The position numbers and the translations under genes are program-made. A stretch of DNA of 6,262 bases, taken from NCBI GenBank assembly GCA_903873355.1, contig CAIQOG010000587.1, positions 1 through 6,262 of the forward strand. Reading direction: 5' to 3'. This document shows, in pieces, positions 3,197 to 6,262 of this stretch. This DNA is from an uncultured Bacteroidales bacterium. Its GTDB lineage: Bacteria; Bacteroidota; Bacteroidia; Bacteroidales; Paludibacteraceae. The first letter of the stretch is position 1. Every line of letters starts with the position of its first letter. The notes beneath the pieces are model-generated. The model was not told the DNA's origin. It saw only the letters and a list, made by a program, of their open reading frames with translations, and ran no database searches.

Positions 3197-3217
3197 TCCA
3201 ACAATAAAACACTGAAC

Positions 3218-3254
3218 ACGGTGATTGTCTTTGAAGATAATCACCGTTTTTTTT
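3218..3254 (+). terminator. Strong Rho-independent terminator of satP
   Basis: ACGGTGATT (3218-3226) pairs with AATCACCGT (3239-3247). The inner bases extend the stem to about 13 bp (one G-T pair) with a 4-nt TTGA loop, followed by eight T residues (3247-3254). It begins 21 nt after the satP stop. Confidence 0.9.
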
Positions 3255-3885
3255 GAAGTCAGTAAAAACAAACCCACCAACCCGGGACAAGTGTGGATAT
3301 TACATACTATCAGAATTATCACATCAAATAAATATTCCCGGAAAATTACACATAAAGTCCTAACTTCGACCACTATCTATTTTCATTTTACAATACAACC
3401 AAAATATGGCCTTTTCCTGAAAACGTGATTTAGCATTCAATTTTAACCCTATTTTTCGTAATAATCAGTTTTATTTTCACAAAAAAACTCCAATACAGTT
3501 AAATATATTGACGTGAATTTTACGTTTTCTCATGAATATTGTGTTATTATATGTTATATTTAGCGTGCCTATATTTAATTTATGTTTCTTTTTTGCTGAG
3601 ATTAAATCCATTCCCGTCTGAATAAATTAAAATTCAGGAATATTTCCGGAATAAATTACAATACTTATTGTATATATAACTACAAAATACATAAAATTAT
3701 AATCATTTTTTACAGCTAAAATATATTACCACAAACCGTATTCATCTGATTTTCTGATACTTACTTATACATATCTCAGGTTTACAATTCAATATTTTGG
3801 CTAATATATTCATATATGTATTTTTCATAAAATCATTTGGAATAATTACTACATGCGATTACACTCATTACTACATGTTGTTGAA
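3255..3885. other. AT-rich gene-poor intergenic region
   Basis: About 630 bp without a convincing gene, visibly more AT-rich than the coding parts and dense in stops in all frames. The open frames that overlap it lack homology or a promoter. A 29-codon hydrophobic ORF (ATG 3532 to TGA 3621) exists but could be chance in such AT-rich DNA. A 12-bp motif ATATTYCCGGAA occurs at 3332-3343 and 3640-3651, each followed within a few bases by AATTACA or AAATTACA. No tRNA, rRNA or CRISPR pattern was seen. The region may hold an untranslated RNA or regulatory DNA for the microprotein unit that follows. Confidence 0.6.
3845..3877. promoter_or_regulatory. Direct-repeat operator candidate upstream of the microprotein promoter
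   Basis: ATTACTACATG occurs exactly at 3845-3855 and 3867-3877, 11-bp copies with an 11-bp spacer, so a 22-bp period (about two helical turns). They lie about 47-79 bp before the expected transcription start of the tandem microprotein genes, a usual place for an activator site such as those of LytTR or OmpR-type response regulators. The identity of the binding protein is inference only. Confidence 0.45.
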
Positions 3886-3917
3886 TTTCAGTTATTTATA
3901 ATCATATTATATATTTG
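3886..3917 (+). promoter_or_regulatory. Promoter candidate of the tandem microprotein unit
   Basis: TATATTTG (3910-3917) is an exact TAnnTTTG -7 element. At 20 bp upstream lies TTTC (3886-3889), one base off the TTTG -33 element. The predicted start near 3924 gives a leader of ~43 nt before the first microprotein ATG. In AT-rich DNA such a match is less telling than elsewhere, but the placement fits and a matched terminator lies at the other end. Confidence 0.5.
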
Positions 3918-3966
3918 TAATGTGATTTAAGACTAATAATTCAAACACAATTAAACACAGAATATT

Positions 3967-4062
3967 ATGAAAACACTTATTAAAAGCTACGCTGAAACTA
4001 CAATGATTCTTTTCACAAGTTATCTGTTCATCTTATGTGCAATTGAATTATTACAGAAATAA
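3967..4062 (+). CDS. Small membrane microprotein, tandem copy 1 (31 aa), function unknown
   Basis: ATG 3967 to TAA 4062 encodes 31 residues: a basic/polar N-terminus (MKTLIKSYAETT), a hydrophobic stretch of about 17 residues (13-29, MILFTSYLFI then LCAIELL) long enough to enter or span a membrane, and a terminal QK. I do not recognise a family. Two more near-identical copies follow. Compared with copy 3, only Ile5 and Ala25 differ at the protein level, while five codons (16, 22, 24, 28, 29) differ silently, which indicates selection on the peptide. A promoter candidate lies ~50 bp upstream. The start is preceded by an A/T-rich leader with no Shine-Dalgarno sequence. Small size and hydrophobicity recall type I toxins, but small regulators or subunits of membrane complexes are equally possible. 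Confidence 0.72.
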   Translation: MKTLIKSYAETTMILFTSYLFILCAIELLQK

Positions 4063-4111
4063 GAAAGAATGTTGTTTAAAACAAATACTAACTATTTCAA
4101 AATATACTATT

Positions 4112-4207
4112 ATGAAAACACTTTTTAAAAGCTACGCTGAAACTACAATGATTCTTTTTACAGGTTATCTGTTCATTTTATGCGTGATTGAGCTATTACA
4201 GAAATAA
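4112..4207 (+). CDS. Small membrane microprotein, tandem copy 2 (31 aa), function unknown
   Basis: ATG 4112 to TAA 4207 encodes 31 residues, begins MKTLFKSYAETT and keeps the single hydrophobic segment at 13-29. It differs from copy 1 by Phe5, Gly18 and Val25, and from copy 3 only by Gly18 (Ser there) plus two silent changes in codons 27 and 29. The 49-bp spacer from copy 1 holds no terminator or recognisable promoter, so it is probably co-transcribed from the upstream promoter. The start is preceded by TACTATT, similar to the TACTGTT before copy 3. No known family recognised. Confidence 0.72.
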   Translation: MKTLFKSYAETTMILFTGYLFILCVIELLQK

Positions 4208-4258
4208 GAAAAACCGTTGATTTTTATATAAATACGATATAAATTAAAATTTACTGTT

Positions 4259-4354
4259 ATGAAAACACTTTTTAAAAGCTACGCTGAAACTACAATGATT
4301 CTTTTTACAAGTTATCTGTTCATTTTATGCGTGATTGAACTACTACAGAAATAA
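4259..4354 (+). CDS. Small membrane microprotein, tandem copy 3 (31 aa), function unknown
   Basis: ATG 4259 to TAA 4354 encodes 31 residues with the consensus sequence of the set: MKTLFKSYAETT, then a hydrophobic segment containing Ser18, Cys24, Val25 and Glu27, ending LLQK. It is the last of the three and is followed after 38 nt by a strong terminator, which marks the end of the tricistronic unit. Cys24 and Glu27 within or at the end of the putative membrane helix are invariant in all copies and might matter for oligomerisation or partner contact; this is inference. No known family recognised. Confidence 0.72.
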   Translation: MKTLFKSYAETTMILFTSYLFILCVIELLQK

Positions 4355-4392
4355 ATTTTCTTCATAATAAAAAAGGTTGTTTGTTATTGAAC

Positions 4393-4437
4393 TGCACCCT
4401 GAAAGTTATACAAATACTTTTAGGGTGCATTTTTTTT
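4393..4437 (+). terminator. Strong Rho-independent terminator of the microprotein unit
   Basis: TGCACCCTGAAAGT (4393-4406) pairs with ACTTTTAGGGTGCA (4416-4429), a 14-bp stem with one G-T pair and a 9-nt loop, followed by eight T residues (4430-4437). No T-run on the other side, so it stops rightward transcription only. It shows that the small ORFs upstream belong to a genuine transcript. Confidence 0.9.
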
Positions 4438-4508
4438 GGTAATTTTTGTTTTCTGGTTTATATTGTATCAAAGTCAAACATAAGTATCAAAGAATGTGAT
4501 TTTAAGAA

Positions 4509-4548
4509 CAAAAAAAGAGGAACAAATCTAACGACTTGTTCCTCTTTT
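4509..4548 (-). terminator. Rho-independent terminator of the rpoA-rplQ (alpha) operon
   Basis: Read leftward, AAAAGAGGAACAA (4548-4536) pairs with TTGTTCCTCTTTT (4525-4513), a perfect 13-bp stem with a 10-nt loop, continued by more T residues to 4510. It begins 22 nt after the rplQ stop and faces the convergent terminator of the microprotein unit about 70 bp away. Confidence 0.88.
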
Positions 4549-4570
4549 CAGTTTATTAAAAAGGTATTTA

Positions 4571-5176
4571 TTATTCTGCTTTTGGTGCTTCTTCTGCTTC
4601 GGCAACTACTTCGGTAGATTCTTCTGCGACAGGAGTTTCAGCTACAGTTTCTTCTACTACTGGAGCTTCTTCAACTACTATAACTTCTTCTACAACCACA
4701 GCCTCTTCCACTACTGGAGCAGCAATTGGTGCAGCAGGAGTAGCTTCAGCTTTCTTGGCAGTACCCGCACGACGTGTACGTGAAGCTTTCTTAGCTGCTT
4801 TTTCTTTCAACATATTTTCGTTATAGTCAACAAGCTCGATGATACACATTTCAGCGTTGTCACCCAAACGGAAACCTGTACGTAAAATACGGGTATAACC
4901 TCCCGGACGGTTAGCTATTTTCTGTGATACATTCTGGAACAACTCAGTTACAACTTCTTTGTTCTGCAAGTGGCTGAATACGGTACGGCGTGAGTGCGTT
5001 GTATCGTCTTTCGATTTAGTCAAAAGTGGTTCTACGTAAACCTGTAAAGCTTTTGCTTTAGCAAGTGTGGTAGCAATTCTCTTATGTTGAATAAGAGAAG
5101 AAGCCATATTGGACAACATCGCCTTTCTGTGAGCCGTTTTGCGGCCTAAGTGGTTAAATTTTTTATTATGTCTCAT
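4571..5176 (-). CDS. rplQ: 50S ribosomal protein L17 with acidic C-terminal extension
   Basis: Residues 1-120 form the L17 core of the large ribosomal subunit: [20 protein letters not shown] with the typical basic N-terminus, [16 protein letters not shown] (29-44), [22 protein letters not shown] (89-110) and CIIELVD (111-117). A basic linker [19 protein letters not shown] (124-142) follows. Residues ~145-201 form a low-complexity tail rich in Val, Glu, Ala and Pro with repeated VVEE units (155-176). E. coli L17 has 127 residues; longer tails are usual in Bacteroidota, and this one is at the long end. ATG 5176-5174 lies 4 nt after the rpoA stop with AAAGAG just before it, so the two genes are translationally close and co-transcribed at the end of the alpha operon. 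The tail would project from the ribosome surface near the exit-tunnel side, where L17 sits; its role is not known. Confidence 0.97.
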
Positions 5177-5180
5177 CTCT

Positions 5181-6262
5181 TTACTCTTTATCTAATTTAT
5201 ATTTAGCGATATCCATACCGAAGGACAGATTAAGGCTTTCTAATTTTTCGTCTAATTCAGTAAGCGATTTCTTACCAAAGTTGCGGAATTTCAACAAATC
5301 GTGTTTGTGGAAACCTGCCAACTGTCCCAATGTTTCTACATCGGCTGCTTTAAGGCAGTTCAATGCACGAACTGAAAGTTCGAGATCGGTCAGTTTGGTT
5401 TTCAGTAACTGACGCATGTGAAGAATTTCTTCGTCAAATTCGTCGCCGCTCTCACTTTCAGAGATTTCCATCGAAATTTTTTCGTCAGAAAACAACATGA
5501 AGTGATGAATCAGAATTTTTGCAGCTTCTTTCAAAGCTTCTTTCGGATGAATTGAACCATCAGTACTGATTTCCAATACTAATTTTTCGTAGTCGGTAAC
5601 CTGCTCCACACGGTAGTTTTCGATACTGTATTTCACATTACGAATAGGTGTAAAGATTGCATCGATAGGAATAACTCCCAGTTCAGAGTTGCTCACTTTA
5701 TTATCTTCAGCAGGTACATAACCGCGACCTTTGTTTACAGTAATATCAATTGTGAAGTTAGCTGTTGGGTCAAGTTCACAAATAACCAGTTTTGGGTTCA
5801 ACACCTCAAATCCGGTAAAATACTTACCTATATCGCCTGCTTTGAATGCTGATGCACCGCTAACATTGATGGTTACCTTTTCATTTTCAATATCTTCAAC
5901 AATCTGTTTGAAACGAACTTGTTTCAGATTCAGAATAATGTTGGTTACGTCGTCAATCACACCCGGAATAGTTGAGTATTCGTGATCTATCACCCCGCGC
6001 GGAGAAACACCGTAAAAGAAGATTATATTACCTTTATCATCAGTGCAACAGCCAGTGACATTTTCAACAATTGCATAATCATGAGATACATACTCTGTCT
6101 GCACCAGTTGAAGAGTAAACCTGCCAGGATCGTACCGGTAAATAAATATAACGCCCGTGGAAGAATCACAGGTAGAGTAATAAATAATATCCTCTTTAGT
6201 TCTATATTCTGTATATTCGGGAGTAACTGCCGTTAGCAGCACTGGCGACAGGTTTAATGAAG
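5181..6262 (-). CDS. rpoA: RNA polymerase alpha subunit with N-terminal part replaced (open to window edge)
   Basis: The alpha subunit dimerises to nucleate RNA polymerase assembly, and its C-terminal domain contacts DNA and activators. From HEYSTIPGV (His at 5984-5982) to the stop at 5183-5181 the protein is a normal Bacteroidota Rpo[53 protein letters not shown], the NTD end [14 protein letters not shown], an acidic linker, and an alpha-CTD with [19 protein letters not shown] and [13 protein letters not shown]. This part is 267 residues, exactly as in a usual 330-residue protein. Upstream of it the frame continues without a stop to the edge, but does not encode the expected ~63 residues (no FRPLEPGYG, no GN.LRR.LLSS); no other frame does either. 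GTG 6242 is a possible but unsupported start. The functional status is uncertain: assembly chimera, rearrangement or in-frame insertion. It precedes rplQ by 4 nt, as in the alpha operon. Confidence 0.88.
5994..6262 (-). other. Non-RpoA coding segment fused in frame upstream of rpoA
   Basis: This stretch encodes about 89 residues in the rpoA frame, from the window edge to the junction just before VIDHEYSTI. It has no visible similarity to an alpha subunit. Two parts align with a 41-residue spacing: [17 protein letters not shown] and [17 protein letters not shown]. This beta-strand-rich periodic pattern, with GN.. followed by aromatic/hydrophobic strands, is what blades of a beta-propeller or similar repeat protein look like; the assignment is tentative. 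The other frames on this strand are interrupted by stops. Confidence 0.55.

Follow-up and report, generated by a model that had tools for sequence, protein, structure and literature searches.

A Bacteroidales family of membrane-type microprotein genes, often in tandem and mostly preceded by a two-part TRCTACA site

The stretch of DNA analyzed here (the window; 6,262 nt) carried three tandem microprotein genes on the + strand, at positions 3967–4062, 4112–4207 and 4259–4354. Each consisted of 31 codons from ATG, followed by TAA, and each was supported by the ORF listing, a profile search and codon comparison. The three copies varied at codons 5, 16, 18, 22, 24, 25, 27, 28 and 29. The changes at codons 5, 18 and 25 altered the residue, the other six were silent, and there were no coding indels. 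The spacers (49 and 51 nt) had clearly diverged. At the DNA level, the tandem repeat unit was 133 nt, and identity to the middle copy was 79% and 89% for the two outer copies. These results agreed with a sequence-only reading made earlier, which had described three near-identical 31-residue ORFs here, with nine variable codons, six of them silent, and with spacers that had drifted more than the coding parts. The same reading held that standard gene calling would miss the ORFs. This was incorrect, as the peptide is represented in a protein database by a cluster with three sequences from one 19,228-base contig, listed in the way used for proteins encoded by the window.

Upstream of the genes, a candidate Bacteroidota-type -7 promoter box, TATATTTG, was found at 3910–3917 (+ strand), its only occurrence in the window. 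The assignment follows TAnnTTTG, which we take to be the Bacteroidota -7 consensus. Two copies of TACTACA on the same strand preceded the box, and we designate them the operator repeats. The distal repeat (3847–3853) lies 63 bases and the proximal repeat (3869–3875) 41 bases before the box, just to the left of the stretch reported earlier, which started at 3886. Downstream, an intrinsic terminator on the + strand (4393–4437) combined a 14-pair stem (4393–4429) with eight T (4430–4437). Its folding energy was -21.7 kcal/mol (z -5.1); it did not appear in the list of a simple terminator scanner. The earlier picture of a self-contained unit of three genes, with its own Bacteroidota-type promoter candidate and a strong terminator, was thus upheld. 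For sigma-70-type promoters, a scan of 3197–4571 gave 11 candidates where 11.0 were expected by chance, a result to be anticipated if the promoters of Bacteroidota are of a different type.

In the left part of the window, the - strand carried an Omp85-type gene, frr and a gene for an amino-acid kinase, which we assign as pyrH. An acetate uptake transporter gene (+ strand) was located between the pyrH-like gene and the three microprotein ORFs, and rplQ and rpoA (- strand) lay to their right. The nearest named loci came from Paludibacter (a member of the Paludibacteraceae, Bacteroidales), other Paludibacteraceae and uncultured Bacteroidales metagenome bins; RplQ was 94% identical to that of genome G004. 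Similarity to the fetched loci (E 1e-3) ran up to about 3254 and again over 4508–5990, and between about 3254 and 4508 none was detected to the loci fetched by then. The unit therefore falls within a part of the window that those loci do not share. Seventeen fetched loci of the transporter gene (satP) also contained no relative of the microprotein.

The transporter gene and rplQ are convergent across 3197–4571, and no rplQ match was present in the 17 transporter loci. This junction may have arisen in the assembly or may be particular to the lineage. Farther right, the similarity of rpoA to its relatives stopped at 5987–5990 in all eight genomes used for comparison. Past this break (5987–6262), an in-frame piece of 90 residues matched nothing in Pfam, and nine relatives gave no convincing match to it. 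The break probably marks a rearrangement or a chimeric join in the contig.

Relatives of the peptide were sought in 358 genomes of one family, Paludibacteraceae as judged from its named members. A single-peptide search gave relatives in G004 (65% identical) and G009 (67%), plus weaker ones. In the profile searches the best 20 or so candidates were scored per genome, and copy counts are therefore lower bounds. The 27-row profile A2, built from matches in the same genomes (which makes E-values for the rows it contains look favourable), gave at least 39 matches in 18 genomes at E 0.01. At least 35 homologues in 14 of the 358 genomes (E 1e-16 to 5e-4) were accepted as family members, and partial matches in G255, G271, G336 and G352 (E 0.004–0.009) were left out. 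All but one of the 35 aligned from model position 1; the exception, in G256, aligned from position 6 and had a longer N-terminus. The sequence-only reading had named stops or frameshifts in homologues as evidence that would count against it. None of the 35 contained an internal stop, and the reading was not refuted.

Twenty of the homologues were arranged in eight tandem arrays and 15 were single. G278 had arrays of three, three and two copies (C44, C71 and C104), G279 one of three (C15), G268 two of two (C22 and C28), G280 one of three and G256 one of two. Together with the window copies, the homologues gave an alignment of 38 rows. Residue lengths were 30 (one member), 31 (six), 32 (16), 33 (nine), 34 (three), 35 (one) and 40 (two), and one of the two longest owed its length to an extended start.

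Selection was estimated from 17 chosen pairs, comprising copies within arrays, likely orthologues and the window versus its relatives. The dN/dS comparison, which the sequence-only reading had proposed, gave ratios of 0.03–0.41 in 16 pairs; the remaining pair gave none, its silent change being saturated, and several other dS values exceeded 1 and are rough. Over 666 pairs (the mean omits the first alignment row), mean pS was 0.66 and mean pN 0.35. AGGAGG preceded the ATG in two G268 copies. From the absence of internal stops, the low dN/dS and these AGGAGG sites, we conclude that, by comparison, the three ORFs are protein-coding genes under protein-level selection.

The majority sequence of the family (30–40 residues) was MKTxxxxSFxKTASILFSSYMLVLxVLxxIxx. 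M1 and F16 (window-peptide numbering) did not vary across the 38 rows, and T11, Y19 and L23 hardly varied. The best 18-residue stretch had a mean hydropathy of at least 2.07 in all 38 members, and on its N-side the net charge was +1 to +4 in all 38. A basic N-side and a hydrophobic segment, of the kind described earlier for the window peptide, are thus predicted throughout the family. A structure model of the window peptide gave one helix over residues 2–30 (mean pLDDT 86, pTM 0.42). A single predicted helix says little on function. A subgroup in G256 and G280 (L126 and L128) had His- and Gln-rich N-termini.

Small membrane proteins are characterized, in a published account (PMC10903887), by an ORF of 60–180 nt, one membrane segment of 15–30 residues and conservation among organisms. 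The family resembles this class in all three respects: its 38 members have 90–120 coding nt, hydropathy (38 of 38) and the one predicted helix indicate a single membrane segment, and relatives occur in 14 of 358 genomes and 25 database clusters. It differs from the class by its tandem arrays and by an operator shared with secreted proteins, and it has no named sequence match.

In an order-level sample of 393 Bacteroidales genomes including G004, only G004 had a credible member, and none was found among the candidates scored in the other 392. The same was true of the 394 genomes other than G004 in a phylum-level sample of 395 Bacteroidota. Both samples were drawn evenly out of larger groups. 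Weak partial matches in 59 genomes of the order sample (E 0.0037–0.1) and six of the phylum sample (E 0.004–0.008) were left uncounted. A search of 5.8 billion predicted proteins with the 38-row profile gave 25 clusters, at E 3e-11 to 4e-5. Seven of these were already in the alignment, including the window's own, and the source name given for eight was hypothetical protein.

Searches of curated collections gave no identity. No member of the 38 matched NCBIfam at E 0.1, and Pfam gave two non-toxin matches at chance level (E 0.059 and 0.099). Four PHROG families were matched by one or two members each, also at chance level (E 0.064–0.09). The PDB gave no match for the profile at E 1 and one chance match for the single peptide (E 0.08), and PADLOC gave nothing for the three window peptides. 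A plasmid relative was sought by DNA, and the 16 records obtained (best E 0.01) consisted of short AT-rich pieces and were rejected; by protein, plasmid records gave none. We found no description of the microprotein family or of a TRCTACA operator in the open-licence literature. The earlier reading had known no described family with this sequence, and NCBIfam, Pfam and the protein names bore this out. Judged from these sequence searches, the microproteins are a genuine, unnamed family, found so far in one Bacteroidales group and apparently restricted to one lineage. It is a new family within a known class, with an unusual arrangement, and adds a selected, unnamed member to the little-known small proteome of Bacteroidota.

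In 10 of the 14 genomes (G001, G002, G004, G009, G251, G268, G278, G283, G284 and G287), one copy adjoined leuB in convergent orientation; leuB was identified by Pfam in G004 and elsewhere by the same ORF start. Away from leuB, no constant neighbour or partner gene was found among the loci compared. The neighbours of other copies included an Nramp transporter, an outer membrane efflux protein, a cNMP-binding protein, a LuxR-type response regulator and a Mg-chelatase-like protein. A glutathione peroxidase gene was located near the leuB-side microprotein in G278 (L051:3639-4199), and ORFs starting like it were also there in several other genomes.

The promoter layout was compared in 23 of the 24 transcription units; L060, with 59 bases upstream, was left out. 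A TAnnTTTG box was at the right place in 20 of the 23 (the exceptions were L058, L126 and L127). In a separate count over 20 family upstream regions, 18 contained CTACA, against 4.7 expected from shuffled sequence, and 13 contained TACTACA, against 0.7. TRCTACA, with at most one mismatch, lay 62–63 bases before the box in 15 of the 20 promoters with a box and 41–42 bases before it in 13. At least one repeat was at these offsets in 17 of the 20, and L051, L052 and L124 lacked both. The 258 other TAnnTTTG boxes in the same loci, used as controls, scored 0–1.2% per offset. By this comparison, a two-part TRCTACA site is conserved at most family gene sets.

Patterns made of repeats and box were searched for in the 14 genomes. 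The distal repeat with the box gave 23 matches versus 8 in the reversed control, and 13 of the 23 were family units. The proximal repeat with the box gave 22 matches versus 3, of which six were family units. Both repeats with the box (at most three mismatches) gave 17 matches versus 4: seven family units, six secreted proteins of one kind, one type IX-tailed beta-helix protein and three others. Both repeats without the box were not enriched in four genomes (12 versus 14 in the reversed control); in G251, both two-repeat matches without the box were family units. Many matches to the operator patterns belonged to neither family nor secreted genes. Those that lay inside genes or before unrelated ones may be chance.

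The secreted-protein kind with this layout occurred once each in eight genomes (L162, L167, L188, L189, L190, L192, L194 and L196). Six of the eight matched the type IX sorting-tail model below the cut-off (E 7e-5 to 0.008) and two did not. The beta-helix protein (L193) had a clear sorting tail (E 1e-13), and PKD-domain proteins (L172 and L180) were also among the pattern matches. When the promoters of the secreted set were aligned on the box, a further common element, CTatATATCA, appeared between the proximal repeat and the box; it was present in only some family promoters.

The N-termini were also similar. With the microprotein profile on 167 N-termini, seven of the eight secreted proteins fell within the top 12. 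The eight outscored 156 controls (rank test p 2e-6), and since they are related to each other, this p makes the difference look stronger than it is. Three of 159 controls had been dropped, namely L067 and L071, which the profile itself had fetched, and one duplicate from L190. The top two N-termini were those of L067 and L071, unrelated to the operator and from profile-fetched loci; among the next best were L172, L176 and L185, from loci fetched for the operator. As scored by the profile, the signal peptides of the secreted proteins resemble the microprotein N-termini. Like type IX cargo of the same genomes, the microproteins have this promoter layout and an MKTxxxKSxxxT N-terminus followed by a hydrophobic run. 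Type IX cargo consists of a signal peptide, a mature domain and a C-terminal sorting tail, whereas the microprotein ORFs stop at 30–40 residues with no following domain and have the conserved FSSY.

Comparison shows selected coding genes with a membrane-type helix, a promoter and terminator, and a conserved operator layout in common with secreted proteins. The reading we prefer, to which we give roughly an even chance, takes the products for inner-membrane accessory proteins, each with a single pass, that serve a surface-protein regulon and have been amplified in tandem. The three copies would each cross the inner membrane once, probably with the N-terminus inside, and a single promoter would serve the tandem genes. 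The promoter is probably switched on by a regulator that binds the two TRCTACA repeats, some 62 and 41 bases ahead of the -7 box, although the sites could repress rather than activate. Given that secreted surface proteins have this layout as well, production of the microproteins probably accompanies a change of the cell surface. With the conserved part of the helix, which includes F16 (invariant) and SSY, they would probably dock on and tune a partner in the membrane, for instance a sensor, a transporter or a component of secretion; tandem copies would raise the dose. Against this stand the lack of a fixed partner gene, the three of 20 promoters without repeats, the three of 23 units without the box, the absence of enrichment for both repeats without the box in four genomes, and the many pattern matches at genes of other kinds. 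Through the operator, the family is tied to a regulon of secreted surface proteins that lends itself to testing.

The shared layout and N-termini also fit signal-anchor peptides that stand alone, come from the 5' ends (the promoter and the first codons) of the operator-controlled secreted proteins and act on their export machinery or signal peptidase. The rank test and the operator-linked L172, L176 and L185 favour this, but the relatedness of the eight proteins weakens the test, and the N-termini from L067 and L071, unrelated to the operator, scored higher, albeit as profile-fetched loci. Short hydrophobic starts converge easily, and the microproteins keep an FSSY segment of their own that those signal peptides lack. 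We regard this origin as possible but doubtful. In a bolder version, which the shared promoters and N-termini also fit, the peptides would be freed signal anchors of this descent, kept in tandem arrays as a built-in governor of the export pathway of those proteins; this is rather improbable. The family is a concrete case of a tandem-amplified microprotein, one that may have arisen from the 5' ends of genes for secreted proteins.

Ldr, Ibs, Hok and TisB are very short type I toxins with one hydrophobic helix, and the Ldr and Ibs genes are also tandem. NCBIfam and Pfam contain models of known toxins. The sequence-only reading had likened the unit to such toxins or to small membrane regulators. 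The microproteins share the length and the helix with all four, and the tandem arrangement with Ldr and Ibs, so that they might be membrane-damaging peptides whose translation is blocked by an antisense RNA. Antisense CAAAnnTA boxes, the one promoter type counted, were at chance (10 versus 10.4 expected in base-shuffled sequence, with possible double counting where regions within arrays overlap) and had no common position. Nothing reached Rfam gathering scores, the four weak Rfam matches lying outside the unit (4483–4571), and no named toxin family was matched. Moreover, secreted-protein genes share the operator, the family belongs to another phylum than Ldr, Ibs, Hok and TisB, and the leuB-side locus is stable. 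The unit of membrane microprotein genes stood and the leaning toward toxins was weakened; we consider a toxin role unlikely. Absence from toxin lists is weak evidence here, type I systems being hard to predict and, according to a published account (PMC12390103), known from three phyla until recently.

Size, hydrophobicity and a weak PHROG holin match in one of the 38 members (E 0.065) would suit holin-like or other phage-derived membrane peptides. PHROG matches were at chance, however, the 14 pattern matches in a viral collection (single-sequence search) yielded no confirmed relative, two protein matches in phage records at E 5 were no relatives, and the gene is retained on the chromosome beside leuB, which makes this very improbable. 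A conserved RNA or repeat element in place of proteins, which the tandem DNA repeats might suggest, is hardly credible, as replacement sites are far more conserved than silent ones, lengths are kept in codons and all 35 homologues are stop-free.

Two further kinds of gene had operator-like sequences. Upstream of a lipoprotein-like gene in G256 and G280 (L146 and L159), a conserved stretch included a single TACTACA, placed at the distance of the distal repeat. In G004 and G009, PocR-PAS sensor proteins (L177 and L178) were preceded by the proximal repeat and a -7 box at operator distance, and, going by this placement, could be part of the regulatory circuit.
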